Origin: Lineus longissimus
Lineage: Eukaryota > Nemertea > Pilidiophora > Heteronemertea > Lineidae
DNA: 64,000 nt
Direction: 5' to 3'
Assembly: GCF_910592395.1 (NCBI RefSeq)
Contig: NC_088319.1
Location: forward strand, 3,658,001-3,722,000
Position 1 is the first letter of the stretch, and each line of letters begins with the position of its first letter. Position numbers and translations under genes: made by a program. Under the pieces are notes generated by a model. The model was not told where the DNA came from, did no database searches, and was given only the letters and a program-made list of their open reading frames with translations. Positions 6,396 through 64,000 of this stretch are shown in pieces.

Positions 6396-6446
6396 TCATG
6401 CTAATGGCTTCAATTCAGCATACGTCTGGTTGGCGGTCACATCAGG
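6396..6446 (-). CDS. IgR-A last tail exon: second ITAM tyrosine (TYAEL)
   Basis: Sixteen residues plus stop, beginning PDVTANQTYAEL. Acceptor TTTACAG. With the preceding exon it completes YxxL-x11-YxxL. The same exon ends all five family members; A and B end KPLA or KPSA, C, D and E end KH or KY. Confidence 0.85.
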   Translation of the reverse strand, partial: PDVTANQTYAELKPLA

Positions 6447-6477
6447 CTGTAAAGTAAGATAATAATCTTATGTCAAA

Positions 6478-6747
6478 ATGACTCTAGAAACCCATAGCTT
6501 CGCGTCAACTAGTTTGTCTGACATCTTGGTAGTTCAGAGAATCATGGAATTCAAAGATTTAAAACCCATTGGGCAAATAAAAGTGCAGCTGTGTCCTGCA
6601 ATGGAAGTGCTAGAAGTAAGACAATTAAAGGACAAATACGGCAAAGATTTGCAGATAACATATATAGAACAAAAATGTATAGGCAGAAATATTCAAATTT
6701 GTATAGATTGTTATTTTAAAGAACATATTGCTAAGGCTCAGTGTTGA
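6478..6747 (+). other. Unassigned 89-codon ORF inside the last intron of IgR-A
   Basis: Opposite strand to the receptor, 89 codons from MTLETHSF. The copy in IgR-B (27,553-27,741) is almost identical for 62 codons and then hits a stop after a small change. I recognise no domain. It may be a captured fragment, or an open frame by chance that was duplicated with the block. Confidence 0.25.
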
Positions 6748-6767
6748 AACGGCTGTCATTGTCTTAC

Positions 6768-6826
6768 CTTGATGTCCAAGGTGGCATATTGATTTTCCAT
6801 TTCATCATACGGATTTTCTTCTCCAG
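6768..6826 (-). CDS. IgR-A tail exon: YDEM and first ITAM tyrosine (YATL)
   Basis: Encodes GEENPYDEMENQYATLDIK. YDEM fits the YxxM consensus for PI3K p85 SH2. E-N-Q-YATL fits the first half of an ITAM (E-x2-YxxL). Acceptor TTTTTAG, donor AAG|GTAAGA, entering at phase 1 and leaving at phase 0. The match is conserved in B, C, D and E. Confidence 0.85.
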
Positions 6827-7195
6827 CTAAAAAGAGTCATGAAGGTGAGAATCTTATCTTTTTTAAAAAAATCTTTCTGATGCATGATCGGGTATACACT
6901 TTGGAAACGGCCATCCAAAACCGCCCGCCAAGTTCTGGAACCCGTAGGGAAGGAATCGATTTTTTTTCGGTATCAATTGCATAAGTATTACTTCCGCCTT
7001 CATACAACATTGCGACTCCATGAACCACTGATGATGCAACTATTTAAATAAGCTCCAGTATAGCGTCAGGGACTTACATTAGTAAGCGTTTGCAATACGC
7101 TGAAAGCGTGTTGCGCACATTTAGTTATGCTTGCAATGACCGCCCTCAATACAACAACCCAGACTGACGTTTATACGCCTGATAGTGGTACTTGC

Positions 7196-7450
7196 CTGTG
7201 GGACCTCCAGGTTTCTTTCCTTCGCTGCTCTCACTCGTACTCTGCCTGGTCTCATTGATATCCTTCACCAATTTGCGTATCAAGGCCTCCTGAGCCAAGG
7301 GCTTGATATGCATCTCCTTGATGTCGTCTTCTCTTTGTAATATGACGAAGAACCTTGCTTCGTTGAACCCGTTCTTAGCTAGTCGTTCGTAAGTTGATTC
7401 TGTCACATATTTTGATAGGAGCCACTGTTTGAAATCTTTGACTGACATAT
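7196..7450 (-). CDS. IgR-A SAM-domain exon
   Basis: 85 codons. Residues from DMSVKDFKQWL to IRKLVKDIN give the SAM pattern: (S)VxDFxxWL, a Tyr-led second helix, NGF, a hydrophobic LxxEDDIKEM block and a last helix with IRKLVKDI. A Ser/Gly/Lys linker follows. The donor is CAG|GCAAGT, a GC-AG intron; if unspliced, translation would run 16 more codons to a stop. SAM domains mediate homo- or hetero-oligomerisation. Present only in A and B. Confidence 0.65.
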
Positions 7451-7996
7451 CTGAAAGAATTCTCAAAGTTTGTAGCAATACTAAAAATGATAAAGATGTT
7501 CCACTGAAGATTTTATGAGGATTATGATACCGCGTTTGCAGCTGGTGCAATAGATTACAGTATCGCCTGTATTGAAACTTGACAATTCCGCTGTTAATCT
7601 ACCATTGAATTGGTTATATTGCCAGTGAACCCGTCGTTTAGTTTCTACAAACGCAATAAAGGATATGCTGACGCCTAAATAAGATAATATTATGTCCAAT
7701 AGACTACTTGGCACAACTGGTATTCATGGCGAATAATGGCCAATAGCACAGTCTATCTAGAAGGGGATGCATTAAATGAACTTATGATACCTTTCTGACC
7801 ATTCCCGAGAAGGTTTTGATCGGTCGAAGTATTATGAAGATTTGCCCTGATAACCATTTGATAAGAGAGTAGAAAAATGGCTTTTGTTTAGAGACAATAG
7901 ACCATGTATTGGGCGAGGTCTGGATTCTTTTGACCGCGAGATAAGGGGCAAAAAAATGTACAATGGCATTGAACGACACATGACATATTCACCGAC

Positions 7997-8065
7997 CTTC
8001 GACTTTCCGAGCAGCATCTTCGCCACTTGGCTTCCCGGTCAGATTCACATCATCGTAGATCACTT
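7997..8065 (-). CDS. IgR-A ITIM exon (VIYDDV)
   Basis: 23 codons, EVIYDDVNLTGKPSGEDAAR. VIYDDV matches the strict ITIM consensus (I/V/L/S)xYxx(L/V/I), the docking site for SHP-type phosphatases. Acceptor TTTCAG; donor GTCGGT is weak but gives the right phase. The copy in B reads VIYDDT and no longer matches. Confidence 0.7.
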
Positions 8066-8292
8066 CTGAAACAATATTAACCAAAAGGCGTTAGTTTTAA
8101 ATACCGGATACTGGAAACCCGTTAGTCTCAGTTTTGTACTTTGTAATAACACCCTTTGAAAAAGCGTGTGCAAAATCATTAAATGAAGTAAAAATCGGTT
8201 GAAATTGGCGGGCGGACGAAGAGAGTGCGTGTGTTAAGGCGGATATGTCGTACGTCCGGTACTAGTACATGGTAAAAAAGGTAGATACTTTC

Positions 8293-8352
8293 CTTTAACA
8301 AAATCCTGTTTAGGATCATTCACATAAACCGACTCAGGTTGAGTATCGTCAC
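8293..8352 (-). CDS. IgR-A tail exon YVND, splice donor lost
   Basis: 20 codons, GDDTQPESVYVNDPKQDF. YVND has the YxN core of Grb2 SH2 sites. The donor after 8293 reads AAAG|GAAAGT where IgR-B has AAAG|GTAAGC, so the invariant GT is gone. Read-through ends after about 20 codons of intron. Confidence 0.75.
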
Positions 8353-8927
8353 CTAGTGAAGGGAGGGATAGAGGAAATGTTAGCATTGTAAGCATGGCTA
8401 TCTCTAAACACATGCATGTGCGATTTTTAAACAATGCTAATTAACAGAATCTGCAAATCTATACCCTGTACAAGACATATGGTGTCTTTATAAGTAGATG
8501 CTATCTTAAGAGTTGACCATAGGCACTCTATTCTTTTGCAAGAATACGAAAATCTAAAGCAACCAGATCCTTCAAGATTAAGCGAATGCCCATTTCATAG
8601 GAGACTGTTCTCTGGAAACCAAAGAACATACTTCCCCCTTGAAATTGGCATTCACTTCTTTTTGAAGAAGTTCTAGTCGCTTTAGGATTTCAAGATTCAG
8701 CCAAATAAAAATGGTGGTGACTTTCTCAACCTTTAGTCGTAATCAACTGGTCCAAATGGTCTAAGGGCAATCACAGCCATCAAGGAAGAGAGACGTGGCA
8801 TATTCATAATAAAGCCTATGTCGGCAGCCTTCCATAACATATACCATGTATCATGTATCTACATTTAATATGATCCCGCAACCATACCACCCTGCATTTT
8901 AAACTCATTATAAACTAAAATATTTAC

Positions 8928-9020
8928 CTTCAAATGCCCTGTTGACGTGAAAAACGGATTCAGGTTGCGGAGTGCCAATTCTCTCATCGCCCCGATTAGA
9001 TCCTTCAGGTTTATTTCGCC
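8928..9020 (-). CDS. IgR-A tail exon, YMN motif deleted
   Basis: 31 codons against 38 in B, C and D. It runs from GRNKPEGSN to VFHVNRAFEG and lacks exactly the seven residues DPVYMNV seen between VFH and VNR in B. The loss is 21 bases, in frame. Acceptor AATAG, donor GTAAAT. Confidence 0.8.
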
Positions 9021-9553
9021 CTATTAAACGGAAAAAATTAGGGTTAAACCAGAGTTGAGTGTATCATCAGGGGTGGCCCGTTCGCGAGATCTTGATTTAC
9101 CAAGCACCTCGGCCTGGCCAATAATACATGTAATTGACTGTGCTCATGCACAGGCTTAAATCTGACGGGTCAAATAAATATTTCAGAGTAAGGCCTAAGC
9201 CGAGCTCACGGAATTGTTCGAGATGTGCATTTGGATCTTCCACCTCCAGTGCACAAATTGAAAGCGAGGCTATCTCTGCAGTCACCGTAGGGTGCACTTC
9301 TCGAGTGTGAGCGTCCATAGATCAGTATATATAAAATATTAGGACGAAAATGGCTTAACACGATTCAACCACACTGGCCTCCACACTGTATCGGCAAGGT
9401 TTTCATTAAAACATGGTAAGGCAAAGATAAATTAACCAAACTATTTGTATCTTTAGTAATAAACAACAACGCCAACATATCACTGACACGCTAATTTCTT
9501 AGGTTTTACCATCAGGTTTGTATCAAAATGCATTCTCTAATATTAAAACCTAC

Positions 9554-10042
9554 CAGCGAAGCATGCCATATTCCTCCTATGTAGAACGACAACCACGACC
9601 ACGACCACAGCTACAACTATGACGACGGCAACAACCACACCAGCTATCATGCCATCATCAGGACTACTTCCAACAGGCACGGTAGTTGGTTGTCCAGCAT
9701 TCTCAGGGACCACAGGACTACTTCCAGCAGACACGGTGGTTGTTCGTCCAGCATTCTCAGGGTGCACAGGACCTGAACTATAAACAACATCATCCCCATC
9801 ATAAAAATCCAAATAGAAGACATAAGTCGTTGTCGCATGTGTCACATGAATTGTGTAATTTGTTTTTGCAGAATCTTGGATAGGGACGAAAGATCCAGTG
9901 CATCCTGTCGTTTTTGGCGTCCGCCCCGGCCCACAGAACTTGAGTTCAAACTTGGTGAAGGGCCCTGTCATAGACGCCGAGAACACCACGGTCAACGATA
10001 GTCCTTTCCGAGTGATCGTAAATGTGGGGATACTTGGAGCAG
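9554..10042 (-). CDS. IgR-A membrane-proximal domain, stalk and transmembrane exon
   Basis: 163 codons. An FN3-like beta domain with two Cys (KFCGPG and TTGCTG), then two stalk repeats of the form PENAGxxTTVxxGSSP, then a TM helix of almost only Val, Ala, Ile and Gly, then LHRRNMACFAG with a basic stop-transfer and a membrane-side Cys. The stalk is Thr/Ser/Pro-rich and suits O-glycosylation. C and D have a shorter stalk with no repeat. Confidence 0.8.
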
Positions 10043-10403
10043 CTGAAAGAACAAATGAGAGTGTTTTAGAATGGACAAGAGCACCTTACGTAAGCTAAGG
10101 TTAAACGACGAAACTAGGATACGTCTAGCATGTTTTTTACTTCGCAAAATTGCGCTTGATACGTGTCTAGTGAGAAACTGCGTGGATTCTGCAAACATAC
10201 CAAAGCAATTGATGCAGTTCATTTGGCCCTGCACCGTCAATTTGTATGTTAATACTAATTCCAAACCTTTAGAAAGGTTGGAGAGCAAATGCATTGACCA
10301 AATCATGCGATTTTTGACCGCTTCGTCGCCAACAAATTCTCCAGTCGGCCCAATGGTAGGAAGGCCGGATTATCACATCAACGATAAACGGAAAATCCGA
10401 TAC

Positions 10404-10694
10404 CTGGTGTGTGTACTGTAAGTACGCCCCCATAGCCACTGCTACCATATTCGTTGTCCGCTTTCACCCGGAATTCATACATCGAATTGCTCTTCAGTCC
10501 TGCTATTTTTCTCACTACATCTTTCGCAAAGCCCGGGTCTGCTATATTGATGTATCTGTCGATGGTGCTTCCGTTTTTGCTCTCGATGGTGAACTGCTGT
10601 TGTGATCCGCCATTGAAGTTACTCTTAAAGATCAATGTCACTGATACTGATGTAACTCGGTGGGACTTCATACAGCAGGGAGTGCGTGGCGGAC
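10404..10694 (-). CDS. IgR-A FN3 exon
   Basis: 97 codons. Fibronectin type III pattern: RTPCC near the start, IAGLKSNSMYEFRVKADNEYGSSGYG at the end (the conserved Leu and Tyr-x-Phe-x-Val strand). Acceptor TTCTAG, donor CAG|GTATCG. Present also in D, absent from B and only a remnant in C. Confidence 0.75.
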
Positions 10695-13336
10695 CTAGAA
10701 CAATAATATGGAAATCTATATTTAAAATTTAACATCACAGTGCAGTAAATGCATCACATGCAGTGCACTTGGCTGCGCTTTATTAGAGGAATTTCACCGC
10801 TAGTGGTACGAGTTACATGTGCGCTTGAGTTACATGTTCGTTAGGAAGAAATGAAAAAAATCCGAAAGAAACAGAAAAGTAATAATTTTGAAGCATTTCA
10901 GTGATAACCATTCATTAATATTTTCGAACAATAGTGAAAATTGCGGCACTTGAAAATACTATCATTGCTATTGCTGAAATGTTTCAGGAAATATCATTGG
11001 CGAAACACTTGTTTTATACCTGGCCGTAGCAGCTCAAAAACAAAAGATGTCATTCCAACAGAATTAGTCACTTTGACGGTGTAGTTTCCGTAGTCTGGAG
11101 TCCCTACAGATCCTTTGCTCAGTGTGTATGTCCCACTTTCTTCCCCGGGGATGAAGTTTTCCCCAGTTGCCATCTTGTGATTTGGGTGATACCACGTAAC
11201 ATTCGTTGGTCGAGGGTTGGCGATGACATGGAGTGTAAACCTGACTGGTCGTAATGGTTTGCTCGCAACGGTGAGGAGTCTCGGCAGTTTGGGATCCCAT
11301 TTTGCTTTGTCTGCAGGTGCATGAAACTGGACAGTGAGAACAACTTACTCATTCAAACTTGGAACCCGGCCTTCACGTCTGCCTTTAGTAGGAATACGAT
11401 TTTCTGTCAGTCAGGATATATCGGGTAATGAATAACTGTTAAGGGTCGAAAATCCGGCAGCGTTGCCATTAACTGACATAACAAACTTACTTCCGCAATC
11501 AACAGTTAGATGAATGAGGCATGTCCTTTAGATTAGCACAGACTCTGCAAACCCAGTATGATAGAGCTGTCTTGGGGCAACCGAGACATCGAGACATCAG
11601 AAGTTAGTTTGAGTTAGATGAATCTTCCACAATTTCAGCTTCGGCTTAGATTCAAAAGACAATCAATATTATTCCTTTGTCATGTTAACTTTGTGTAACA
11701 TGGTATCTACGGAGTTCCTGTATTTATCATTTGGTGGGCATTCTGAGAATATGTGCTTTTTCTTGCTAACCAATAATTTAACCATTGAAGATTCATATCA
11801 CTTGCCAACCCATCAGACCAATTTTAAATTTCATATGCAATGCTTCGAAATACACTGAAACAGTTCTGCAAGTTCTTCGTACTCACATAAAACATCCAAT
11901 TTTAATATTGCATCAGCTATGCCGCCTGGAGAATAGTTGACCGCACGACAGCGATACTCTCCACTCCTGTTGTACTGTATTGATGATATTCTGTATTGTC
12001 TTGAAGTCATATTCGGTATTTGTATCCAGTTATAATACCATATGTAGGTGTACGATGTCGGGTTACCCCCTCTTGCTTCACATGTCAATGTGACAGTATT
12101 GCCTTCTTTCACTGTAGTCGAGGCTAATGATAATACGACGTTTGCTGGGTCTGAAAATAATATCACAATTTATAGGCATGGAAATATCAATAGTGAGTAA
12201 GGCTGTGATTTATATAGAGTTACGTTTTCACATGTTACATGTCACTGTTCACTTTTCATGCGTGACATGAAGACCGAACAAGTCATTTGCAAAGAGTGGG
12301 CTACATGCGATTCGCGTTGTCACTTTTCACCCTCACGTCGTGTTTTCAGGCCTAAGTCAGTTAACCCGTGACAAGTGAATCACGACAAGTGACAAAGTGA
12401 ACCCTATACCACTCCGGCTAAGAGTGTTTGTACAATCTCGATATCGTGAATGCATATCATAATTTGGAAACCACAATTCTCAATCAATGTTTTTACAAGG
12501 AGCAATTCATTCAGTATCTGCACATGTAAATACATTTTACAGTACATTACATTCGCTTCAACTAATGGGGAGAAACACTGTAACATATGATGTAAACTTC
12601 ACTGTTTTGCAGAACTAATACGTACAATATACATTAACTGTAGTTGTCTGTTCCATCTGGAATGACCCATCACGAACCTCGCATTTGAACACAGTCTGTG
12701 TGTCCAACCTATTGGCTGTCACAACCAAAGTACTCTTCCGAATCCTGCCATTGTATTCTGCCGCCCTGTCTTCAGATGTTATCCCCGACGTCAGTTGCTC
12801 CCAGGTTCCTCCTGTCCTCTTCCGGTGGAACGTTACATTCGCAACCGGGTTGGCGCTGTTTGTCTCACATATGATCGTGATCAGTTTCCCCTTGTAGATC
12901 ACTCTCGGTGGTATTTGTAGCAAAGTTATCTTTGATGGGTTAACTGCAAGGGGAAGGTGGAGCGATGTTCTGAACAGAATGGTAGGTAACGCATAGATTG
13001 CACGAAACAAACTGATATGCATGTTGGGTTTATAACCTGCTGTCAAGGGTGTGTTTGCTATTTTTCATCGAATAATCTCCATCACGGTAAAGATGTTTCG
13101 AAAACATGTTCAGAAATGCGTTATTTGCGAATGAGTTGCTGTCTTATACTTAATATTGACGTTACCACATGTTGTCGTTCGAATTTGCTGCCAGAACTTT
13201 TAAATCCATTTTACAATAAATTCATATTTTATCCTGCGTTGTTCATCTACTCATATTGTTTTACAAACATTCTTGTAAGAATGGAACAAATAACCACATG
13301 TACCAGTACATAACGATGACTCATCCTACACGTTTT

Positions 13337-13483
13337 GGATGCTTTTCTGACTTCTTAACGGTTTCTCCAACTTTCCCCTGATTTATTTGACAAAAGTGTG
13401 ACATTGTCCGACTTTTCCCCGAAATGTCGGATTTCTAGGGAAAACACGTTAGAGAAACCGTAAGAAGTCGGAAAAAGCCTCCT
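13337..13483. mobile_element. Palindromic MITE in the Ig5'-Ig6 intron of IgR-A
   Basis: Long inverted repeat: outer words GCTTTTCTGACTTCTTAACG and CGTAAGAAGTCGGAAAAAGC with an inner second inverted pair around a short spacer. No coding. Same element at the same intron in C (43,195-43,348) and D (54,434-54,583); truncated copy at 14,769-14,888. Confidence 0.7.
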
Positions 13484-13555
13484 ACATGAACATTGTACTC
13501 GTGTTAGTCAGCACTTCAGATTCTCGGTTCTGTAAAGGTTGGTTCATCTACTCAC

Positions 13556-14317
13556 ATTTTACATACATTGTGGTATCGGCCTTTGTCATTAAGTCATGAC
13601 CAGTCAGGGAGTAGATGGACGCACATCTTACAGTTTCACCATTCATTGCCTTTGTTGCAGTTACAGACCACTCACTGATCCTGATCTTTCCACCATACAC
13701 AACATTCCTCTCGGATGATGAGATTCCGGTTGTGACATTTCGCCACGAAGAACCAGTACTATGTTGATACCACTTGATGTCGGTAACTGGGTTACTCTCA
13801 TCCGTCTCACATGTGAACTTCTTTACCTGACCAGCCTGGACAGCAGCGGTCGGGTGATTGAGAAAGGAAACCTTGGTGTTTGAAACTGAAAAGGAATCGC
13901 TAGAAATTATCTTCGCCTTCTTTTGCATATTTTTATCTATCGGGATAAACAATACTTTAAAATGGCCGAGTTAGAGGTTTATAGCAATTTCCTCACGCTC
14001 TTAATGCAGAAGTAGACTGAAATTTCGCAAGAGATAAAACGTACATGTTACGTTGTATGTCTTCCTGCTTGAAGTCATATCGAAGGCGGGATACCCAGTG
14101 ACCTTCGCCTCGCAGTAGTACTCAGCCTGATTGTCTTCTTTAGCCATCACCCTGTCTTGACCTTGGATGACCTCTACTGGTGTTCCGTCTGACCTCTTGA
14201 AATAGAGCTTCACGGTCGGGGTGGGGTTGCCGCCAGAGACTCTGCAGGTGAACTTGTCCTTCTCTCCAACATAGGATGAGGTCTTTGCAGATGACACGAC
14301 CACGGAATCAGGTTTAT
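13556..14317 (-). CDS. IgR-A duplicated Ig4'-Ig5' exon pair
   Basis: Exons 14045..14317 (Ig4') and 13556..13885 (Ig5'). They closely match 15427..15699 and 14949..15275 in the same gene. Both are open and phase 1-1. Ig4 has FTC and EYYC but no Trp in the core; Ig5 has FTCETDESNPV, IKWYQ and TVRC. Together they add two Ig domains that C and D lack. Confidence 0.8.
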
Positions 14318-14402
14318 CTGAAACGATGATGCTGCAGTTATATTGGGAGCAGCTAGCCTTAAGCTTTTAGTTCCGTTTATAATTGACGCATAGCCTTGCC
14401 GT

Positions 14403-14672
14403 TTCGCATTTGAACACAGCCTGTGTATCCAACCTATTGGCTGTCACAACCAGACTACTCTGCCTAATCGTGCCATTGTATTCTGCAGCCCTGACTTCAG
14501 ATGTTATCCCCGATATCAGCTGGTCCCAGGCTCCCCCTATTCTCTGCCGGTGGAACTGGATATCGGCAACCGGGTTGGCGCTGTCAGTCTCACACGTAAT
14601 CGCGATCGGATTCCCCTCGCAGATCGATGCTGGTGGTTTTTCCGGCATAGTTATCTTTGATGGGTTAAATAC
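14403..14672 (-). pseudogene. Truncated Ig6 exon relic inside IgR-A
   Basis: Reads NPSKITMPEKPP to VFKCE and then jumps into sequence that in IgR-C lies between Ig3 and Ig4 (44,184-44,236). The 3' third and donor are missing. The acceptor is also gone: TTGTATTTAACC here against TTGCAGTTAACC in the intact Ig6. It is the scar of the exon duplication. Confidence 0.75.
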
Positions 14673-14768
14673 AAGTGGAAGGTGGAGTGATGTTCTGAAC
14701 AGAATGGGAGGTAACGCATAATTTTTATTCGTAAGATTGCACGAAAGAAACTGATTTGCATGTTGCAT

Positions 14769-14888
14769 GTTTCTCTAACGTTTCCCTGATTTATCCGACA
14801 AAAGTCTGACATTATCCGACTTCTCCCTGAAAGGTCGGATTTCTCAGGAAAACCGAGAGAAACCGTTAAGAAGTCGGAAAAAGCCTCC
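14769..14888. mobile_element. Truncated copy of the palindromic MITE
   Basis: Begins at the inner gtttctctaac word and keeps the right arm aaaccgttaagaagtcgg, so the left outer arm is missing. It lies next to the Ig6 relic and was duplicated with it. Confidence 0.65.
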
Positions 14889-16856
14889 TACTAGTGTTAG
14901 TCAGCACTTCAGATTCTCGGTTCTGTACAAGTTGGTTCATCTACTCACATTTTACATACATTGTTGTATCGGCATCTGTAGTAAAGTCATGACCAATCAG
15001 GGAGTAGGTGGACTTACATCTTAGAGTTGCACCATTCATTGCCTTTGTTGCAGTAACAGACCACTCACTGATCCTCATCTTTCCACCATACACACCATTC
15101 CTCTCGGATGATGAGATTCGGACTGTAACATCTTGCCATGAAGAACCAATATAGTGATACCACTTGATGTAGGTAACTGGGTTACTCTCATCCGTCTCAC
15201 ATGTGAACTTCTTTACCTGACCAACCTGGACAGCAGCGGTCGGGTTATTTAGAAATAAAACCTTGTAGTTTGAAACTGAAAAGGAATCGCTAGAAATTAT
15301 CTTCGCCTTAGAATTTATCTATCGGGATAAACAATACTTTAAAATTGCCGAGTGAGAGGTTTATAACAGTTTCCTCACGCTCTTAATGCAGAAGTAGACT
15401 GAAATTTTGCAAGAGATAGAACGTACATGTTACGTTGTATGTCTTCCTGCTTGAAGTCATATCGAAGGCGGGATACCCAGTGACCTTCGCCTCGCAGTAG
15501 TACTCAGCCTGGTTGTCTTCTTTAGCCATCACCCTGTCTTGACCTTGGGTGACCTCTACTAGTGCTCCGCCTGACCTCTTTAAGTAGATCTTCACGGTCG
15601 GGGTCGGGTTGCCGCCAGAGACTGTGCAGGTGAACTTGTCCTTCTCCCCAGCATAGGACGAGGTCTTTCCTGATGACACGACCACGGAATCAGGTTTGTC
15701 TGAAACGATGATGCTGCAGTTATTGTATAGTACCCCCAGGTATATGGCACGGCTTAACCCGTCCAAATGAGCTAATGAATTAGAAACGGACTGACATTGA
15801 TTCTAAAATCTCACAATGTCTAGTGTTGATGCGAATAATTCAGTTTGAGAGAGAATGAAGTATTTCTATTGAAAATCTGAGAGACTTTTTGACATTTTCG
15901 TTTTTATTACAGTGTACATTGTGACCGTGTATGAGCCTTGGTAGTCTACAGTAAACTAGGGCAGAAATTTAGAGCTTGATTTTTTTTCCTGCGGTGATAA
16001 GTACTAACACGCTGTTCACTGCATTGTTGGGGATTCACCTTCTCCAGTTTCAACCTCGTGATGGGATTTTTTGCCATAGTAAGTTTTAGTTCGTGTTTTA
16101 CCCTTTTTATCTCTCCTCAGCCATCATCAGCCTCACTAGCTGCGACCCTAGAAGCCAACGGGCTTGTTTTAGATAATGACCGAGGAGGCAATAAGCTATC
16201 GATTCTGTAGTTTTACATTGTTTCAACAGTAATGTCGTCAAGGCTCTATTGCCATAAGACCGATGTCTCCACTTACCATATGACAAATGTGGATTTAATG
16301 AATCGAATCGTTTTGGTATCGTCGGTGGAGTCGGATTTACATGTATTTAAAAACGTCTTTCATAACGTATGGTAGGACTATGACTATAGTGATCGTAAAA
16401 TTGCACCCAGACTGTAATTGTAACTGTACTAAAACACTCCCTTACATTCTCCAACCGAGATATGAACAACTAGCAGCCGTTTATAAGAAAGCTGAAGCTC
16501 ATTCCATTTTAGTTTGGTTGGCTTGAAAGGTTTACTGAGCGAGCAGACGAGAATTTCTATTGAACTTGCCTGGGCTTTTTAGTTTGTATTCACCACATAG
16601 ACAGGTCAAATGCACCAACGAAGAGCAATGAATAAAAATCAGTTTGGGCATTGAAATGTCGCAATTATATTTTTTCAACTGGCCATGCATGTATATGCAT
16701 TCTGGTGTTTCAACAAGGAAGTACGATGGCCACCTTATTTCTAGTGTCAATAGTGTCTCTCACATTGTGTTTTCATATGTAAAATGCCACTTAGAGTGGT
16801 CAAAAGGTTTATTTATGGTTCGAATGGGAAAATATTGAAAAATTAACATAACTTAC

Positions 16857-17105
16857 AATAAACGACTAATGTCTTGTCACCACTTGGAGCAGACCCGACA
16901 GCATTTCTCGCCACACACTTGTAAACACCAGCACTCTCCTTTGTCACTTGGAAGTCGTAACTCGATGATGTTGTAACCTTTGTGCCATCTTTGTACCAAT
17001 CCTAGGTATCTCCAGGAGGGGAGGCCACACACTTCAAGTTGAGCTGTGCTCCAGCAATGACTGGTCCAGATGGGAAACCGGTGATCTGTGGCGTGCCTGG
17101 GGGCG
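16857..17105 (-). pseudogene. IgR-A Ig3 exon with in-frame stop
   Basis: 83 codons, from APPGTPQITGF to DKTLVVY. The Ig core is LKC ... DWYKDG ... AGVYKC. The codon before DW is TAG (17002..17004) where B, C and D have TAC (Tyr), a single base change. Splice sites are intact (TTTTCAG, GTAAGT), so skipping this symmetrical exon would remove the stop. Confidence 0.8.
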
Positions 17106-17870
17106 CTGAAAAATTTCATTTGATTGTAAGAGGGTGGTTTGGAATATCAATGCCCTTCTCGTATCGTGACTTAGACTGGCAAATCGTGGTCAATTTTGTT
17201 TACCTCTGTCTTTCACTTAATCGTGTTATTTTACTTGGCTTCTATATACAAAATGTATATACACATAACTGGTCATAGTATTTGCAGCTATTTGTAGCTA
17301 CCTGAAATACGTACTGAAAATTGCGAAACAGTCTTCGGTGTGGAAAAACCAGTCATCGGTGTAAATGAATATTTTAGTTGCAAGCCCTCCGTTCCTTTAT
17401 ACGGGCGAAAGTTAATTTATAACAAAAAGGGCGAAGCAATGCGTTACCTTGCACTACTAGCTTGACTGGGTTACTGTTGCAGCTCAGACTAACATCCTGA
17501 CATATCCAGTAAGCAGAATCAGAAAGCTGAGCATTGGTGACTTGTAGATTGAATGTCTTTGTCAGTGATGAGATGCTTGGTGGGCTGCAGCTGCTCCAAC
17601 TGTAACGTGGGTTACTTGGAGCATGGCATCCCAACTTATTTGCTGCAGCTACATATATAGCTGGAGATGAAGCATCAGCCTTCTTTAACCAATACACAGA
17701 TAATCCGCTTGGATTGGATATGTAACAGTTGAGGGTGAATGTACTTCCGATGGCAGGTGTGGGTGGTGAAACACTCACGGTATACAATGAACCTGAAAGT
17801 GAAACATGAGATTATCGTGTTTTTTTCTGTATAGCGATGAGTCGTGTTATACATCTAAGATAAGTGTATA

Positions 17871-18031
17871 CAGTGGAACCTCCCTTAGTGGACACCTCTC
17901 TATTAAGGAAAACCTCTCTATCATGGACACTAGTATAAGTCCTAAACTGGTTGTTACAATTCAATTTAATCTCTCTATTAAGGACAGTATTTGTCAGTCC
18001 CAGTAGTGTCCTTAATAGAGAGGTTCTACTG
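17871..18031. mobile_element. Pogo/Tigger-like MITE, intact ends
   Basis: 161 bases with inverted termini CAGTGGAACCTCCCTTAG and AATAGAGAGGTTCTACTG, flanked by TA on both sides as expected of Tc1/mariner-pogo insertion. No transposase. Sits in the Ig1-Ig2 intron; the same insertion is in IgR-C (46,451-46,611) but not in B or D. Confidence 0.8.
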
Positions 18032-55100: not shown

Positions 55101-58100
55101 AAATCTCCCCACACTCTTTATTTTTAAGTAGATTGAGATTTCGCAAATTATAAAACCTACAGGTTACACTGTATGTCTTCCTGCTTGAAGTCATATCGAA
55201 GGCGGGATACCCAGTGACCTTCGCCTCGCAGTAGTACTCAGCCTGGTTGTCTTCTTTAGCCACCACCCTGTCTTGACCTTGGGTGACCTCTACTAGTGTT
55301 CCGCCTGACCTCTTGAAGTAGAGCTTCACGGTCGGGGTCGGATTGCCGCCAGAGACTGTGCAGGTGAACTTGTCCTTCTCCCCAACATGGGATGAGGTCT
55401 TTCCAGATGACACGACCACGGAATCAGGTTTGTCTGAAATGATAATTATCGCTGTAAGAATTGCTTTCGCCAGCGAGAGGGTATGCTGATTGGAAACCTT
55501 TAGGCCTTATTGTGTTATATCGAAACCATTGACAAACTAGTGATTGTTCTTAATGTTCCTAACCCGTCACGAATCTAATGTTAGGATGATCTGAAGACTA
55601 GCAAGCGGTCGTATGTTACTTAGTTCATCATACATGCCGGTGTGGATCTGGAGTGATCATCTGTCAGAAGTATGGTGTATATATACTATCTCCATACCTA
55701 CGATGGCCGAAAAGATTCAATAAATACAAAGGTCGTGGATTCACTAATGCTTATTGAATGTCTATTAATATGTCCGGCCATTCACGCACGACGTGCATGG
55801 CGTGGTTATCCAGATGGAATATCACACAGTAAACACTTGTCCTTAAGTGTCCACATCGATAATATGCCAATAGACCAAGAGAGCGAAGAATAAAAAAGAG
55901 TTGAGGAATTGTTAATATATAGTCAGCTGAAAGTAAAAAATCGGGCTTCGAAAGGACACTGGTAGGCTGCCCATACAAAGTTTGGTGGCGATCCGCCAGT
56001 CGCAGACAATCCAACAAACACACAAAACAGCACACGTTTAGGATGTCTTTTCACCTTAATCATGTCTATCAACAGGCATTCCGGGCTATCAAATATTAAG
56101 TGTCTGAATATTATATAGATATGCACACATCTAAATTGTTGTGTTGTATCTAACGCTGTCCCTTTTCATTTCTGTATGTGCTCTATCAAAATGCAAGTAA
56201 TGAGACAACTTACAGTAAACAACTAATGTCTTGTCCGTACTGCTGGCCGACCCGGCATCATTTCTCGCCAAACACTTGTAAATACCAGCACTCTCCTTCG
56301 TCACTTGGAAGTCGTAACTCGATGATGTTGTAACCTTTGTACCATCCTTGTACCAATCGTAGGTATCTCCAGGAGGCGAGGCCACACATTTCAAGTTGAG
56401 CTGTGTTTCAGCAATGACTGGTCCTGATGGAAAACCGGTGATCTGTGGCGTACCTGGGTGCACTGAAAAATTTCATTTGATTGTAAGAGGGTGGTTTGGA
56501 ATACCAATACCCTTCTCGTATCTTGACTTAGACTGGCAAATCGTGGTCAATTTTGTTTACCTCGGTCTTTCACTTAATCGTGTTATTTTACTTGGCTTCT
56601 ATATTTTTCACGATGCACTGGCAGCACGACTCAATCATGCTCTGGCTATTGTAGTATGGGCTCCCAAAAGAAGTAACATACAAAATGTATATACACATAA
56701 CTGGTCATAGTATTTGCAGCTATTTGTAGCTAGCTTCCTGAAATACGTACTGAAAATTACGAAACAGTCTTCGGTGTAGATAAACCAGTCATCGGTGTAA
56801 ATGAATATTTTAGTTGCCAGCCCTCCGTTCCTTTATACGGGCGAAAGTTAATTTATAACAAAAAGGGCGAAGCAATGCGTTACCTTGCACCACTGGCTTG
56901 ACTGGGTTACTGTAGCAGTTAAGAATAACATCCTGACAAATCCAGTAAGCAGAATCAGAAGGCTGAGCATTGGTGACTTGTAGATTGAATGTCTTTGTCG
57001 GTAATGAGATGCTTGGTGGACTGCAGCTGCTCCAACTGTAGCGTGGGTTACTTGGAGCATGGCATCCCTTCCTATTCGCTGTTGCTACATCCATAGCTGG
57101 AGATAAAGCATCAGTCCTCTTTAACCAATTCACAGATAATCCGCTTGGATAGGGAATGTAACAGTTGAGGGTGAATGTACTTCCGATGGCAGGTTTGGGT
57201 GCTGAAACACTCACAATATACAATGAACCTGGAAGTGAAAGAAATTGCAACAGAGAGAAAGTATGAACTGACTTTTTTATTTGACCTATTGGGTATAGTC
57301 TCTGTTTGTGAGAATTATGTAATTCATTTAATAAAATAAGCGAAGAAACTTCATTGTAATGGAGGAATCCCAAGAGTCACTAGTCGGAGAACAATCACTC
57401 GATAATGGCTACCTTTTCATTCGAGGCATCGTTATGAAAAATAAAATTCTAAACACACAGCGAGATTCCTGTAAAATATATACCAAACTCTATTGATACA
57501 CAGTTTTACTGAGCTAAAGAACCTCTTGTATTTGTTTTCATTTGACATTCTCTTCATGTAAAACCTTTGATACAATGCCCGCAGTGACGTGAACATTTAC
57601 TTCTCAGAAGCCTATATTATTGAATAACTCACATGGTATATAGACATACAGATCTCCCCATTCGCTGTCTCTTGTTCCGACCGAGTTCAATGCTCGACAC
57701 TTGTACTTTCCACTGACAGGCTCTTCAGTAATACCGTGGAACACTTTCTTCTCAGACACTGAATGGAAGATATACTTCTGACTTGTACCAATAGGTCCCA
57801 TCCTCTCCCAATCCTCCACACCTGTCTTAGCATCTGCTCTGTATTTGTACCATCTATATACTATGGTCCCGGCATCAGGTTGAGACGCATCACAGACGAG
57901 TTCACGGTAGGAGCCGATAGCAGCAGGTTCAAATCCAGATAAAACTGGTTTCTTTGGCAGAACTGAAGCGTTATCGAAATTTTGTTGTATTTACGTCTTA
58001 CCTGACTCGTCCCGAGAGAAAAAGGTCACTCAGTGACATTCACTCCTTCATTCCCAAACACATCAATTTACAATGGATCTAATGTCTTTGTTTTGTACCA

Positions 58101-59746
58101 ATTATCCCGTCGCAATGATGATGTCCAGTACATGTTTTAAGAAAAACAGTTCTAACTGGAAAACAGTCCTTCTCTATTGATTATTTATATAAAGGAATGT
58201 TTCAAGGGTTTAGAAATGTCACTCTCAGTATATTTGTTTTTGTCTCAGGTGATGAACAAGATGATTATTAATTTCAATGAATAAAAAACAGTGGTCACTA
58301 ACATTTTCAGAGCACTGGTGCTCGCCGGTTACACACCGCGCAAATTTGGCATATTTGTTCCTATAAAGAATGCCTTAGAAATCGGAATAACAACAACTTA
58401 GATAATCTATTTAAGGGTGCATTTGAACCAGCGTGAGTAACTTAGTTCATGATTCGCTTGATAGCGATCTGAGAAACAAGATGGGCCAAAGGTGGTGAGA
58501 GAAAAAAGCACCATCATTAAACGATTAGACAAAAGCCCTAACAAATACATGTACGATAAGGGATTTTCACATTGTATGATTAAGGAATTGAACCCGAGGC
58601 GGAGGACCTTGGTTGAGTTACCAAGACACTCTCGGGTGGAGCTAAAATACAGTCCAAACCCGAGCCGATAGGCGAGGGTTTGGACGAAATTTTAGCTAGG
58701 CTTGGGTTTGGACTGTATTTTAGCTCCACCCGAGAGTGTCTTAGGCTCGGGTTTGGACTGTATTTTAGCTCCACCCGAGAGTGTCTTGGTAACTCAACCA
58801 AGGTCCGAAGCCGAGGGTTCAATTTCTATTCTAAAATACCTCAAACTTAAAAAGATAGGCCACGAAATAACTTGAATATGTGCGAATTTGGCAAATTCCA
58901 TCCATCGCCTGCCCGGAGCGCCGGTAGCGCCGTTGTTTACATTATGTTACGGCAGCGCGTATAGAAAGTCCGGATCGGCTCGCTCAAGTGATGCTAAAAT
59001 CCGCGCAAATGGGCTATTTGGAGCGTTTTTCTCAGCAAATATGTGTAGTGCTCATTAAAAAACTTAGGGTGGTTGATGCTTCCTTGGCTGATTTGTGTTT
59101 GAAGCAGTGTTTTGAGAGCCTCAAACTTCTGAAGTGAGCTGTGTGCATGGTTTCCACATTTTAGTGCAACCCGAGGGAACTTTGGTAGAGCATCTTGGTT
59201 GAGTGTCCAAAACACTCCACTCTCAGAACGAGGCTTATGCATTTTCCATTTAAAAGTTGACTTTACGGTACCAAGGTATTTTAGAATAGATGTCTCCGAG
59301 TGATTACTCACCAATGAGAACTACAGTCGTGTACGATAAGGGATTTTCACATTGTATGATAAATGTCCCTGAGTGATAACTCACCAATGAGAACTACAGT
59401 CGTGTACGATAAGGGATTTTCACATTGTATGATAAATGTCCCTGAGTGATTACTCACCAATGAGAACTACAGTCGTGTACGATAAGGGATTTTCACATTG
59501 TATGATAGATGTCTCTGAGTGATTACTCACCAATGAGAACTACAGTCGTGTACGATAAGGGATTTTCACATTGTATGATAGATGTCCCTGAGTGATAACT
59601 CACCAATGAGAACTACAGTCGTGTACGATAAGGGATTTTCACATTGTATGATAAATGTCTCTGAGTGATTACTCACCAATAAGATGAGCCGGTGGTGCCG
59701 AAAGTAGGATGCATGCGCAGCTCACGATGAAGATATCGATAGCCAT
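49182..59746 (-). CDS. IgR-D: multi-Ig and FN3 receptor with ITAM-like tail, no SAM
   Basis: Exons: signal 59677..59746; Ig1 57633..57962; Ig2 56884..57228; Ig3 56214..56462; Ig4 55161..55433; Ig5 54657..54983; Ig6 53725..54042; Ig7 52987..53250; Ig8 52166..52456; FN3 51507..51797; membrane-proximal+TM 50739..51155; YMNV 50403..50516; YVNS 50156..50215; YDEM/YADL 49975..50033; YAEL 49182..49226. Total 3,453 nt, 1,150 residues, open. The signal peptide (MAIDIFIVSCACILLSAPP) is unlike A, B and C, and Ig1 has one extra codon. It is the only copy with all eight Ig exons plus an intact FN3 and no visible lesion, so it may be nearest to the ancestral extracellular layout. The FN3 donor (CAG|GTCCGC) is weak. 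Tail as in IgR-C. Confidence 0.83.
51507..51797 (-). CDS. IgR-D FN3 exon
   Basis: 97 codons, with IAGLKSNSMYEFRVKADNEYG as in A. The acceptor is TTTCTAG; the donor has GT but poor +3 to +6 bases, so it may be used inefficiently. Confidence 0.7.
54434..54583. mobile_element. Palindromic MITE in IgR-D
   Basis: Both arms clear: GGAGGCTTTTCTGACTTC at left and GAAGTCGG...GCCTCC at right. Ig5-Ig6 intron. Confidence 0.7.
58580..58830. mobile_element. Foldback element in the first intron of IgR-D
   Basis: About 85-base inverted arms: left 58,586-58,668, right about 58,738-58,822, both containing ctcgggtggagctaaaatac or its inverse. A third partial arm (58,680-58,735) sits between them. Ends carry gaattgaacccgagg and its inverse. 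No coding capacity. Foldback or MITE-type DNA element. Confidence 0.75.
59288..59680 (-). repeat. 73-bp minisatellite overlapping the IgR-D first splice donor
   Basis: The word gtgtacgataagg starts at 59,329, 59,402, 59,475, 59,548 and 59,621, an exact 73-base period. Each unit carries ATTG|GTGAGT, a full copy of the signal-exon 5' splice site with its last coding bases (TVVLIG). The rightmost partial unit is the real exon 1 donor at 59,677. A single related piece lies at 58,553-58,580. Confidence 0.9.
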
Positions 59747-60062
59747 AGTTTATTTCGATAGTAAACCATGCTCAGCGGACGGCTCCTTCACCTTACTTGT
59801 TCTGATGATCGGCACAAAGTGCTATGACTGAATTTATACCTAGGTCCTTATTCACAATATCAAAAATACGCTCGACTTTTATGTACTTTGACAATATCGT
59901 TTATGTATTTTTGAAGTTGATTGGGTGAACTGGGCAATGTGCCATTCAATGCCGGTACCAGGAAGTCGAAGAAGTTCGAATGACTATGACTATGAATATG
60001 CACACTACGTTGTACATCACGCGAATGCCACTTTGGGTATGTCACATAACACGATAGCCATA

Positions 60063-60617
60063 CTTTAAAGGCCGGGTCTATTTGGCGAGCCGCTCGCCGA
60101 ACAGGCATCTTTTTTTGTCCTGTTTGGAGAGCCGCTTGCCAAACAGCACTAAAAAGCCAACCTGTTCGGCAAGCCGGGCCTGCCAAACAGGGCAAAAGTA
60201 CTACCCTCTTTGGCGAGCCGGAGAGGTTACAACATGTTGGCCAATCAGAGAGCAGTGACGTCACATTCGAATTTATATGCGCATATTTAACAATGGCCGA
60301 CTTCCCGCTCTCGATTCAATTTCTGTTACTAAACTCGGGTTTTGGTAATAATCCATGAAGAAGCATGTACATGTACATGACTGTATGGATTTACAAAAAA
60401 AGTCATAAACGTGATTTAACTGATAAGCATGTTGAATGCATTAGTGTGCATTTCTAAAGGCGTTTCACTGTAACTCCAGTGTTGCTGACCGTGTTGCCAC
60501 GAAAGATAATGAGCTCCTGGATGGTTGAATATGCATGAGTTCGGCTCTCCATCTAGGGCAGAAAAAAGGCGCTGTTTGGTGAGCCGGGCTTGCCAAATAG
60601 TCACTTCCTACTTTAAA
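60063..60617. mobile_element. Putative DNA element with imperfect inverted ends and TTTAAA borders
   Basis: Left end TTTAAAGGCCGGGTCTATTT, right end inverse of ATTTAAAGTAGGAAGTGACT followed by ATTTGGC. Internal subrepeats of ctgtttggcgagccg occur five or more times in both orientations between 60,085 and 60,220. No transposase. Type uncertain. Confidence 0.45.
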
Positions 60618-61315
60618 TTATTTTACCGCTGATCGATAGCGATAATACATCACGTGCGCGCAGTGCAAAGTTTTGTAAGCACGCAAGAAAATTGGGTGTC
60701 ATTTTTACGGACTGACTTCCGGGTTGTATGTAGCGCGCGTATGATATAAGATCTTTCCCCATATTTAGACGGGACACCTGAGCTAATAATTGTGTCAACG
60801 CAACTAAAGTCTGAAATATGCGGTCTGGCAACAATTTCGAAGCGTGAAATGCAAAGACGAAACAAGAACTGGTGTTGTAATTGCTTGTTGATGGGCTATC
60901 ACATGGGAGTCTGCGACATCCTTATCCCTGCCTGATAGAAATATAGTGGAGCAAAACCGATCATTCATTGCAAATCAGAAGGGAAAATGTTTTTCTTTGG
61001 CTGGTAGATTGTGTGTTGGGAAAACAGAATGGTCATCGTATCATCACTCAGTACCTCCCAGTTTTGCTTTCGGAGGGGATGTTCTACAAGTGCTGGGAAC
61101 TTGTGATCTCCACTGAGAGATGTCAGAGAAAAATCCCCGAAATAACCTACTCATAGCATTTTCTCCCTTTTATTGTTTCACACTAAATCCCACTGACTTG
61201 TGGTAGGCAACATAATCGTGCAGAGGTAGTGAGTGAAGATCAGCACAGCTCTAATTGCGGACGTAACTTTCGGCGATTTCCTGCCGGGCCTATATTTTCC
61301 TCTTAAGGTGAAACC

Positions 61316-61603
61316 ATGGTCATCTTTACGAGGCAACTGTTCAGGGATGTGACAATGGAAGCAAATGAAGTCTCAACTTTAATCTTGGACGACAGCGGCG
61401 CCAGCCTCCTGATTGTTTTCCGGAAATTCGTCAAACAGTTCGGCATTTATATCACCATGGTGATACTCGCCTCGGGAATTTTCGGGAAGGTGTTGTCGAC
61501 CGTGGTGTTCTGGAGGCTGCGGCGCCAGGACAATGTCACAACCAGCTACCTGGCGCCAATCGCCATGTACGACTTGAGCAATGAGTCGAGATTACTAAAG
61601 TAG
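61316..61603 (+). pseudogene. Orphan GPCR first-exon fragment
   Basis: 95 codons. After a hydrophilic N-terminus it reads IYITMVILASGIFGKVLSTV, then WRLRRQDNVTTSYLAPIAMYDLS. This is the TM1 to early TM2 pattern of class A receptors (GxxGNxLS, ICL1, LxxxAxxDL), but the TM1 Asn is Lys. After DLS the frame leaves the family pattern and stops, and no clear donor or later exon follows. Only plus-strand gene-like signal in the window. Confidence 0.5.
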
Positions 61604-62839
61604 TGTACAGCAAATGTTTATTAACTACTAGCGATGGCAAGTAAACTAGGATATTCTTTATTCTTGAATAAAAAATTGAAATACATGTACTGGAGAGCGA
61701 TGATACAAACTACATGTACTAGTATTTATAATAATTTAGCCACTGCCAGTTTATAGCTTTAAAACAAACAAATAATAGATATAGGATTTAACAATAGTTG
61801 ATTCTTGACAGTTTTCGAAATCTCTCTTCGAATTGTTCTTTTGGTAGGAACATGAAAACCGCAGTCGAACTCCATGGCGCGTGATGGGGTGGGGGGGGGG
61901 GGGGGGGGGCATGGTATTTCTGCAGGGCTGCTGTAACGGTTTTTGATGTTTTCGTTTCTAAGCGTTACCCCTATTGTTTTGGAACGCGGAAAGAGAGTTT
62001 GACACGTTTTTCTACGTTTTAATCAATTAAAAGTCATGTGTGTCTCTGCCGTCTATTGTGGAAACACTGAAATATTGGGAAACGACCTGAGAGCTTTACA
62101 ACGGGACATGGCCCGACAACTGAGCCGGTGAAAAGCGACATCTCGAACCACTGGAAGCACGCTCTTCAGAAATGACTTGAGTTACAAGTAATAACGAAAC
62201 CCCTAGATAAATATGACCTTAGGCCAGATATGCATTGGATTTACATTGTCACGGTTCACATTTCACTCGTCACGAGCATGTTTGCTAACAGACTGCACCT
62301 GACGAAGGGGTGAAAATGACATCGTAGTCGTGGTCCGCTCTCTAGAAATGACTTGTTTATTCTATAAACGACAACGTCAACTGTACGCGAATCCAACCTT
62401 ATTGGTAGGCCTATTTAAAAAATACTCAACTTGCGAGTTCCAAGTTATCTCAGTGCGTGTTTGAGGTCTGCACCCAGTGAAAGATGTAATGTATTTCACC
62501 GGCTGAGAATAATGAGATGAATGGGTTCTGGCAAAAAGCACAACGCCGACCTATTGCGGCCAGCACTGATGCAATTACAAGTCTAGTGTATAATGATGGA
62601 TAACTACATGCAATATGTCGTGACAACTCTTGTCTCGTATAAACTGAGAGTGGTAAATACTGCATGTACATACAGAAGGGCTAGCTGTCCCCGGTGACAA
62701 GCTTGCCTCCATTTTACTTTGTAAATCAATAACAAAATGTTAGAGCCAATAAAAACAGAAGTCATTTTATCGTCTCACTCTGCATATGTGACACAAACTG
62801 GACTCGTGTGAAACCTTCTTTCATTTTCCGTCTTGATTT

Positions 62840-64000
62840 TCAATATTTCAATTCAGCATACGTCTGGCTTGCGATCACATCAGGCTGAAAGACAAAATGA
62901 AACTTTTACGGGTCGTGTCAATTAAAGGCATCCACTGTGAGGGGGGGGGGGGCGGGCGGGGGCAACAGCTATAAATCAATGTTGAATATAAAAATTCTGA
63001 TACATTTCGCATCAGTGATGAACTTCTCAAAAAATGTGTCCTTTTTCATATGCCTTTGATCACGACACTCAACACTGGCAACGCATACGATCACTAATAA
63101 AGCCTCAAACTGTCTCGAAAAATCGGCAGCTCTGGGTCAACTCGAATTGATATTTCTGAGGTGAAAAGGATTTGAATCTGTGGGCCTGAGGACAAGCATA
63201 TCAAAATGTCCTCCATGATGTGTTCGCGTGTACTAGCCAATCAGATCCACGGATTCCGACTAGAGGTACGATGTGATGTGATATATTTAAGTCACTAAAT
63301 AGTGTTCAAAGTGTCGTCCTTCAACCCCAGAACGTTTTAGAGCTTTCAGAACTGGTGAAGTGCAGGCTTTGAAAGTCACCGAGTAACTCTTGGCCAGTGC
63401 TGCGGCTATTGGTCATTTATTCGTCTTTGTTCTTCATTGCTACCATTCAATTATCACGAGATTCATGATCAAATCCGCTCTACAAATTAATCTTTGACCA
63501 TGTTGCATTGCATTGTAACTAAACAGCGAAATATATCAACACAACTCAGGAAGGGCGTGACTGTATTCTCTTACCGTGATGTTCAAGTCAGCATATGGAT
63601 TTTCCATTTCGTCATACGGATTTTCACCGCCGTCTAAAAAAGAGTAATGTTTGTGTGAATGTTATTATAATTCAAGGATTAGCCGCACGCTTGATCATGC
63701 AAAAGTTAAAAGGTTGATTCCGTCACTTGGTTGGAGAGGAGCCATTGTTAACCTCACCTAAAGGAAATAGATAAGTAAGAGCGACATCATTCTCTGAGCA
63801 ATGCTGCCCCCCCCCCCCTCACTCCCCTGGCCGAAAACTATGACATTAGTTTCATATATATGTACATGTTCAAGATAATTGAGAAGCGTATGTTGCATAG
63901 GCAACAGCGGGTATTTTGTACTTACATGTTAAGCTTGCGACTACTTACCTTCCACGGGATTCTGTTGAGGAAAATTAACATAAACCGGTTCATGTGGAGT
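62840..64000 (-). CDS. IgR-E: 3' end of a fifth receptor (partial)
   Basis: Three tail exons: YVNF 63949..64000 (cut by the window end), YDEM/YADL 63575..63633, YAEL 62840..62884 with stop. Residues: PHEPVYVNFPQQNPVEG, then the same YDEM and YADL residues as C, then PDVIASQTYAELKY. Splice sites are good (GTAAGT; TTTTTAG; CTTTCAG). It has no SAM exon, so it belongs to the C/D type. The intron before 63,949 holds a C-run near 63,811. The rest lies beyond the window. Confidence 0.78.

Follow-up and report, generated by a model that had tools for sequence, protein, structure and literature searches.

A tandem array of immunoglobulin-domain receptor genes with tyrosine-motif tails in the nemertean Lineus longissimus: a candidate recognition family

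Results

Gene array

The stretch of DNA considered here, 64,000 nucleotides from the ribbon worm Lineus longissimus (assembly GCF_910592395.1, contig NC_088319.1, positions 3,658,001 to 3,722,000; hereafter the window), carries a family of genes predicted to encode multi-domain immunoglobulin (Ig) receptors with tyrosine-bearing cytoplasmic tails (Table 1). Comparison of the minus strand with itself shows four repeats of one gene (A to D) and the end of a fifth (E), and the cluster of co-oriented tandem paralogues is real. A first-pass annotation, made from the letters alone, had described five such paralogues. The co-orientation, the tandem arrangement and four full copies are borne out, but E is represented in the window by three tail exons alone, which rules out five complete genes here and means that no ectodomain can be claimed for E. 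Exon models were assembled by combining stop-to-stop frames with splice signals and with a comparison of the copies with one another, and it is from the sequence itself that the exon structure, the open frames of B to D, the conserved tail exons, the mosaic duplication history and the decay of A are read. GC content is 39-43% across the window, and scans of the window for tRNAs and, at gathering scores, for Rfam families each returned no match.

The spliced models of B, C and D contain no internal stop. Each comprises a signal peptide (SP), six to eight Ig domains, one or two domains resembling fibronectin type III (FN3), a single transmembrane (TM) helix and a tail of 100-210 amino acids (aa), and hydrophobic leader exons with good splice donors lie upstream of A, B, C and D. 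This is the architecture first proposed for the family, including the optional FN3 domain and the tyrosine-rich tail, but the proposed range of 6-10 Ig domains is replaced by counts of six Ig exons in B, eight in C, eight in D and 11, two of them damaged, in A. The counts for B, C and D stand because tblastn, with the exons of D and two exons of B as queries, gave no unassigned Ig match below E 0.03. Both GC-AG introns in the model of B (at 31400 and 28561) have an otherwise full donor consensus. In D, a 73-bp unit repeated 5.5 times (59286-59684) includes the splice donor of the SP exon, and the first intron apparently contains several decoy donors in a row derived from these repeats, as read by eye.

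Ectodomain

In the D protein, Pfam recognises Ig_3 (6.7e-40), I-set (1.3e-25), C2-set_2 (2.5e-15) and V-set (1.3e-9, falling on Ig2), in addition to Ig_2 and ig. In B, C and D, each of the 22 Ig exons has a phase-1 intron on either side. The FN3-like domain FN1 is present in A and D only, tblastn with the above queries having found no FN1 in B or C, and in D it matches fn3 below the Pfam cut-off (20.4 versus 25 bits, E 0.0006). FN2 is present in all four genes. Searched against Pfam, the FN2 sequences of B, C and D gave no fn3 match, and an AlphaFold model from the four sequences (pLDDT 85) has seven strands in an FN3 arrangement, for which Foldseek returned a best E of 1.8e-4 to an FN3 scaffold and 14 matches at 0.001 or less; as modelled, FN2 has an FN3 fold. 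A 54-bp two-copy repeat occupies the FN2-TM stalk of A (9659-9772) and B (30364-30475). No such repeat was listed in C or D, where the FN2-TM exon is some 75 bp shorter.

Dscam proteins have about 10 Ig and 6 FN3 domains and arrays of mutually exclusive exons. A Dscam identity does not fit the 6-8 Ig and one or two FN3 domains found here, and the same tblastn queries revealed no arrayed exons beyond the duplication of Ig4-6 in A.

Tail exons and tyrosine motifs

The tail is spread over very short exons. T1 (YMNI or YMNV) is common to C and D, that of E falling beyond the window, and T2 (YVN), T3 (ENPYDEMENPYADL) and T4 (QTYAELK) are found in all of C, D and E. In A and B the tail is longer, with T2b (VIYDD) and a SAM-like exon in addition. 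That these exons are real is best supported by their alignment footprint in the four tail pairs that we aligned, on the same strand, between the A/B and C/D/E lineages. B against C gave five high-scoring segment pairs (HSPs), all five on the TM end, T1, T2, T3 and T4; A against D gave six, on the exons from TM to T4 and their immediate flanks; and B against E and A against E gave four each, covering T2, T3, T4 plus a little 3′ flank, together with the 37-bp remnant of the SAM-like exon. T1 to T4 are very probably coding, since they make up nearly all that aligns between the lineages in the tail region, where the introns no longer do. Phase 1 is the starting phase of every tail exon up to T3 and also the end phase of those preceding T3, which would let splicing exchange tail modules without breaking the frame.

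The tails of B, C and D each contain two YxN sites, one YxxM site and one YxxL pair. The YxN and YxxM sites of the first-pass annotation are therefore present, and its sites resembling the immunoreceptor tyrosine-based activation motif (ITAM) exist in a wide form, Yxx[LI]-x6-12-Yxx[LI], which occurs with a spacing of 11 in four of four tail versions (two of B, one each of C and D) and has the same residues, by eye, in A and E. A similarly wide YxxL spacing is found in FcgammaRIIA. The joint pattern of two YxN, one YxxM and the wide YxxL pair, which was picked after the motifs were known, arose per 50,000 shuffles 0 times for C, once for D, once for B without SAM and 12 times for B with SAM; taken alone, the YxN pair (about 6-7% of shuffles) and YxxM (about 14-17%) are unremarkable, and the wide YxxL pair arises infrequently (46 to 355 of 20,000). 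Between the B and C tails 30 of 90 residues differ and none of the 10 key motif residues does (p=0.013), which places the conservation, in this comparison, in the motifs and not in the whole tail.

The SAM-like exon

The claim that some copies carry SAM holds to the extent that a SAM-like exon is present in A and B, where it is under purifying selection (A-B, p=1e-4), but its score lies below every threshold, including the Pfam SAM_1 gathering score, and its structure model has low confidence. The assignment to SAM is plausible. In B, the unspliced reading of this exon could possibly yield a SAM-terminated tail. Probably the exon is ancestral and was lost in the C/D/E lineage, given that a relic of it persists in the T2-T3 intron of E. 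Part of the exon's C-terminal half occurs a second time in B (28269-28385).

Decay and mosaic history

Gene A has accumulated four lesions: Ig3 has an in-frame TAG stop, Ig6a has lost its acceptor AG and is shifted in frame near its end, T1 has lost its YMN site, and the T2 donor reads GA in place of GT. Without Ig3 and Ig6a an open frame of 1,230 codons runs through T1, and Ig3, Ig6a and T2 are phase-neutral, so A may survive through exon skipping; it is probably either a pseudogene or an exon-skipping gene. These lesions, together with the lack of FN1 in C and of Ig5, Ig6 and FN1 in B, would be expected of a decaying array of little function in which paralogues from segmental duplication are drifting. 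We regard this as very unlikely for the array as a whole, given that B, C and D are open, that Ig exons and the SAM-like exon are under purifying selection, and that the tail exons still align where the introns no longer do. Between B, C and D, dN/dS is 0.36-0.48 in Ig3-8 and 0.43-0.48 in Ig1-2.

When A is compared with the other copies in 300-bp steps, its tail and FN2 are nearest to B, FN1 and Ig7-Ig4b nearest to D, the Ig7-Ig8 and Ig4a-Ig3 introns nearest to C, and its 5′ end nearest to C or B. C and D are 97.7% identical over about 1.95 kb around the tail and 79-92% identical in their other aligned pieces. This mosaic of nearest copies in A and the uneven C-D identity suggest that the copies have undergone recombination or gene conversion with one another.

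Table 1. Coordinates in the window of the receptor genes, their exons and selected features. Exons are given in the direction of transcription.
Feature	Position	Strand	Remarks
Gene A (damaged)	6396..19355	-	exons in the two rows below
Gene A, 5′ exons	SP 19355-19286; Ig1 18692-18366; Ig2 17792-17448; Ig3 17105-16857; Ig4a 15699-15427; Ig5a 15275-14949; Ig6a about 14670-14400; Ig4b 14317-14045; Ig5b 13885-13556; Ig6b 12943-12626; Ig7 12150-11887; Ig8 11310-11020; FN1 10694-10404	-	Ig3 with in-frame TAG
Gene A, 3′ exons	FN2+TM 10042-9554; T1 9020-8928; T2 8352-8293; T2b 8065-7997; SAM-like 7450-7196; T3 6826-6768; T4 6446-6396	-	YMN lost in T1; T2 donor GA
Second Ig4-Ig5-Ig6 exon block in A	14400..15723	-	internal duplication
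SAM-like exon of A	7146..7450	-	GC donor and read-through stop as in B
Gene B	27471..36329	-	970 aa model
Gene B, 5′ exons	SP 36329-36260; Ig1 35674-35348; Ig2 34943-34599; Ig3 34177-33929; Ig4 32964-32692; Ig7 32484-32221; Ig8 31690-31400	-	GC donor at Ig8
Gene B, 3′ exons	FN2+TM 30747-30259; T1 30061-29948; T2 29435-29376; T2b 29167-29099; SAM-like 28812-28561; T3 27899-27841; T4 27521-27471	-	GC donor at SAM-like exon
SAM-like exon of B	28511..28812	-	GC donor, otherwise full consensus (28561), joins to T3; unspliced reading stops at 28511
Gene C	38032..47888	-	1,052 aa
Gene C, 5′ exons	SP 47888-47819; Ig1 47253-46927; Ig2 46372-46028; Ig3 45605-45357; Ig4 44148-43876; Ig5 43734-43405; Ig6 42989-42672; Ig7 42237-41974; Ig8 41376-41086	-	
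Gene C, 3′ exons	FN2+TM 40147-39734; T1 39365-39252; T2 39063-39004; T3 38881-38823; T4 38076-38032	-	
Gene D	49182..59746	-	1,150 aa
Gene D, 5′ exons	SP 59746-59677; Ig1 57962-57633; Ig2 57228-56884; Ig3 56462-56214; Ig4 55433-55161; Ig5 54983-54657; Ig6 54042-53725; Ig7 53250-52987; Ig8 52456-52166; FN1 51797-51507	-	
Gene D, 3′ exons	FN2+TM 51155-50739; T1 50516-50403; T2 50215-50156; T3 50033-49975; T4 49226-49182	-	
Ig2 of D, V-set type	56884..57228	-	residues 30-59 are the highest-pN 30-codon stretch of the Ig ectodomain across copies
Tail exons T1-T2 of D	50156..50516	-	YMNV and YVNS (YxN); homologues in B and C; A lacks YMN
Tail exons T3-T4 of D	49182..50033	-	ENPYDEMENPYADLNIT + PDVIASQTYAELKH: YxxM and YxxL-x11-YxxL pair
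Gene E, tail only	62840..64000	-	T2 (cut by window end); T3 63633-63575; T4 62884-62840 (QTYAELKY*)
SAM-like exon relic in E	63709..63749	-	T2-T3 intron; 37 bp, 81% to A and B

Other features of the window

A 6.2-kb segment occurs twice at 95% identity (1178-7313 and 22218-28385). Besides the 3′-terminal part of receptors A and B, it contains a split gene for a rhodopsin-type G-protein-coupled receptor (GPCR) on the minus strand. This GPCR, whose last exon in the first copy matches 7tm_1 (E 6e-9), was duplicated together with the receptor tail. A dispersed repeat of about 170 bp, which looks like a miniature inverted-repeat transposable element, sits in receptor introns and flanks (5697-5873, 17869-18029, 26770-26947 and 46449-46609, and inverted at 39512-39675). 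Finally, a stretch upstream of the SP exon in A (19691-20080) and C (48225-48591) lies inverted upstream of B (36990-37355), perhaps marking a rearrangement breakpoint.

Discussion

Multi-Ig receptors are widespread, and the relatives of this family must be sought among both immune and adhesion proteins. In a sequence search of the PDB with D, the best 60 of 131 matches are led by FcRL5, CEA, titin, sidekick-1, SYG-2, Robo and Dscam, with CD22 and Fc gamma receptors lower down. Vertebrate FcRL, Siglec and CEACAM proteins are multi-Ig receptors with YxxL tails, and the leading totals of FcRL5 and CEA, together with a YxxL pair as wide as that of FcgammaRIIA, could suggest that the nemertean genes encode direct homologues of these receptors, with true ITAM or inhibitory (ITIM) motifs. 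We consider this highly improbable. Comparable scores go to titin, sidekick, SYG-2 and Robo, the similarity is generic to Ig domains, FN3 is present here, and the strict ITIM and ITAM patterns are absent. Direct homology to FcRL or CEA is also rejected on the ground that the high totals are many weak domain matches added up: for Ig5-Ig7 of C, the best single FcRL5 and CEA matches reach 12 and 27.5 bits. The top PDB matches of Ig1-Ig3, namely FcRL5, Robo1, Kirrel-1 and contactin, are all weak, and among the PDB sequences compared the ectodomain appears to have no assignable ortholog.

The main rival to a recognition role is that adhesion receptors of nephrin/SYG/Kirrel type, or relatives of these, have expanded in this lineage, with tails that would drive actin via Nck, Grb2 and PI3K in the nervous system, in myoblasts, or at filtration or epithelial junctions. 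Nephrin has 8 Ig domains and FN3, carries YDxV sites for Nck, and belongs to a class of adhesion receptors with a C-terminal PDZ motif such as THV. The nemertean proteins share the multi-Ig, FN3 and TM layout, most closely in C (8 Ig, one FN3-like domain and TM), contain C2-set_2 domains, and carry a YDEM site that resembles the nephrin YDxV sites. Moreover, Ig5-Ig7 of C align with D1-D3 of SYG-2 in one collinear alignment (42.2 bits, i-E 6.7e-10), and only the three highest of the 51 matches in that search have totals above this value. At the same time the domain order is offset, with SYG-2 D1-3 falling on Ig5-7 rather than Ig1-3, and the overall top scores belong to FcRL5 and CEA, though spread over many weak domain matches. 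In addition, the array is tandem, mosaic and partly decaying, the tails contain a YxxL pair, and they end, by eye, in KH (C, D), KY (E), PSA (B) or PLA (A), none of which is a PDZ-binding motif. One-to-one orthology to nephrin or SYG, named at the outset as a finding that would speak against a recognition cluster, was not seen in the PDB comparisons made, but the SYG-2 match and the layout of C keep this from being a clean separation. On balance we judge adhesion unlikely, while giving it more weight than any other rival.

Our preferred reading, which we hold to be probable if not by a wide measure, is a birth-and-death tandem family of type I Ig/FN3 receptors that combine ligand recognition with phosphotyrosine docking. 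Recognition is likewise the likeliest role, at a little better than an even chance. The first-pass annotation had gone further in opposing a recognition cluster to a housekeeping adhesion family. In its favour are the tandem duplication, the mosaic relations, the duplication of a three-Ig block, the decay of one copy, a peak of change in the V-set domain and the conserved SH2-docking residues. That peak emerged from a pN/pS scan of 793 Ig codons, which included A with the b copies of Ig4-6 and its stop codon skipped; pN peaks in residues 30-59 of Ig2, with a permutation p of 0.02 across the 793 codons. A maximum of pN-pS at the Ig7/Ig8 boundary is not claimed (permutation p=0.06).

Several results weigh against this reading. 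The strongest single alignment of Ig5-7, among the three of 51 listed, is to the adhesion protein SYG-2. By regular expression, the strict ITIM [SIVL]xYxx[ILV] is absent from the tails of C, D and B without SAM, its single match in B lying inside the SAM-like region, and the ITIM that had been announced for these tails is thereby withdrawn, as is membership of the ITIM receptor class, whose strict pattern goes unmatched in the flexible tails. The canonical ITAM Yxx[LI]-x6-8-Yxx[LI] occurs in none of the four tail versions, and the ITAM-like reading is retained for the wide spacing only. An ITAM-called motif alone would be no proof of immunity in any case, because shrimp and Daphnia Dscam tails are described as carrying motifs called ITAM (PMC6851185). 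The whole tail is no more constrained than the ectodomain, with dN/dS of 0.60 (B-C) and 0.56 (B-D) against 0.36-0.48 in Ig. Purifying selection between C and D is significant (Ig3-8, p=9e-6; Ig1-2, p=0.001), and in the set of exon pairs, from which the A-T1 and A-Ig6a rows were left out, the 11 pairs with dN/dS above 0.9 (eight) or without synonymous change (three) gave Fisher p of 0.22 to 0.75. In no exon pair does dN significantly exceed dS, and positive selection is rejected as a claim. Even in Ig2 residues 30-59, pN (0.20) merely equals pS (0.18), which suggests a stretch that is relaxed or mildly diversifying, with positive selection not proven.

If recognition is the role, the membrane-distal Ig domains would bind ligand, and upon clustering Src-family kinases would phosphorylate the tail. 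YxN is a site of the type bound by the SH2 domain of Grb2, and other SH2 domains have preferences of their own; the two YxN sites would accordingly be predicted to recruit Grb2-type SH2 adaptors, and YDEM a PI3K- or Nck-type SH2 protein. The YxxL-x11-YxxL pair would recruit a tandem-SH2 protein, either Syk-type, leading to activation, or SHP-type, leading to inhibition, between which the sequence cannot decide. In A and B the SAM-like exon may be added optionally. Most likely, such receptors would act in recognition on blood or epithelial cells, whether of non-self or in self/non-self discrimination, and it is in this sense that an immune or allorecognition function may be proposed.

Receptors of this kind are already known from oyster, Hydractinia and Botryllus. 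Titles cited in a review (PMC11999971) name an oyster IgIT and a receptor of 'BCR-like signalling' as Ig receptors. In the accounts available, oyster (Crassostrea gigas) CgIgIT2 has five extracellular Ig domains, a TM and an ITAM, and is called inhibitory in a title cited by the same review (PMC11999971), while CgSiglec-1 has two I-set domains and binds polysialic acid, lipopolysaccharide (LPS) and peptidoglycan (PGN), its blockade raising phagocytosis (PMC5877582). As described there, these are, like the present genes, lophotrochozoan Ig-superfamily (IgSF) receptors, and they are tied to hemocyte responses; compared by description only, the nemertean receptors differ in having 6-8 Ig domains and FN3, an optional SAM-like exon and a tandem mosaic array, and in lacking a strict ITIM or ITAM. 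Hydractinia Alr is reported to comprise 41 clustered IgSF genes with ITAM/ITIM motifs on candidate genes (PMC11999971, PMC12065747), and the array here resembles it, as so described, in being a cluster of IgSF type I receptors. Botryllus FcoR, encoded at one locus, is described as having an Ig ectodomain, a TM and a long tail with ITIM, hemITAM or YxxI/L/V core motifs that are swapped by alternative splicing (PMC12065747); it differs in its sushi domain and length of 520-610 aa, and SAM and YxN are unmentioned in its description. Titles and abstract openings in the literature contained no description of the present family, a search outside which subscription papers fell, so that unpublished status is not shown.

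What is most unusual about the array is its cassette structure, together with the optional SAM-like exon. These would allow a modular paired-receptor system, in which gene conversion shuffles phase 1-1 ectodomain cassettes from one neighbouring gene to another and weak GC donors choose between a SAM-ended tail, one with SAM and the YxxL pair, and one with the YxxL pair only. We regard this extension as improbable; if true, one locus would provide clustered, activating or inhibitory versions of one ligand-binding receptor, and the system would be an independent analogue of vertebrate paired receptors. Tyrosine-tailed Ig receptors occur in cnidarian, tunicate and molluscan recognition systems. 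Within 64 kb, the nemertean array brings together block duplication with mosaic recombination, a decaying copy and an optional SAM-like exon, which offers a compact view of receptor diversification, and its tail exons would be clear point-mutation targets for SH2 signalling in recognition outside vertebrates.

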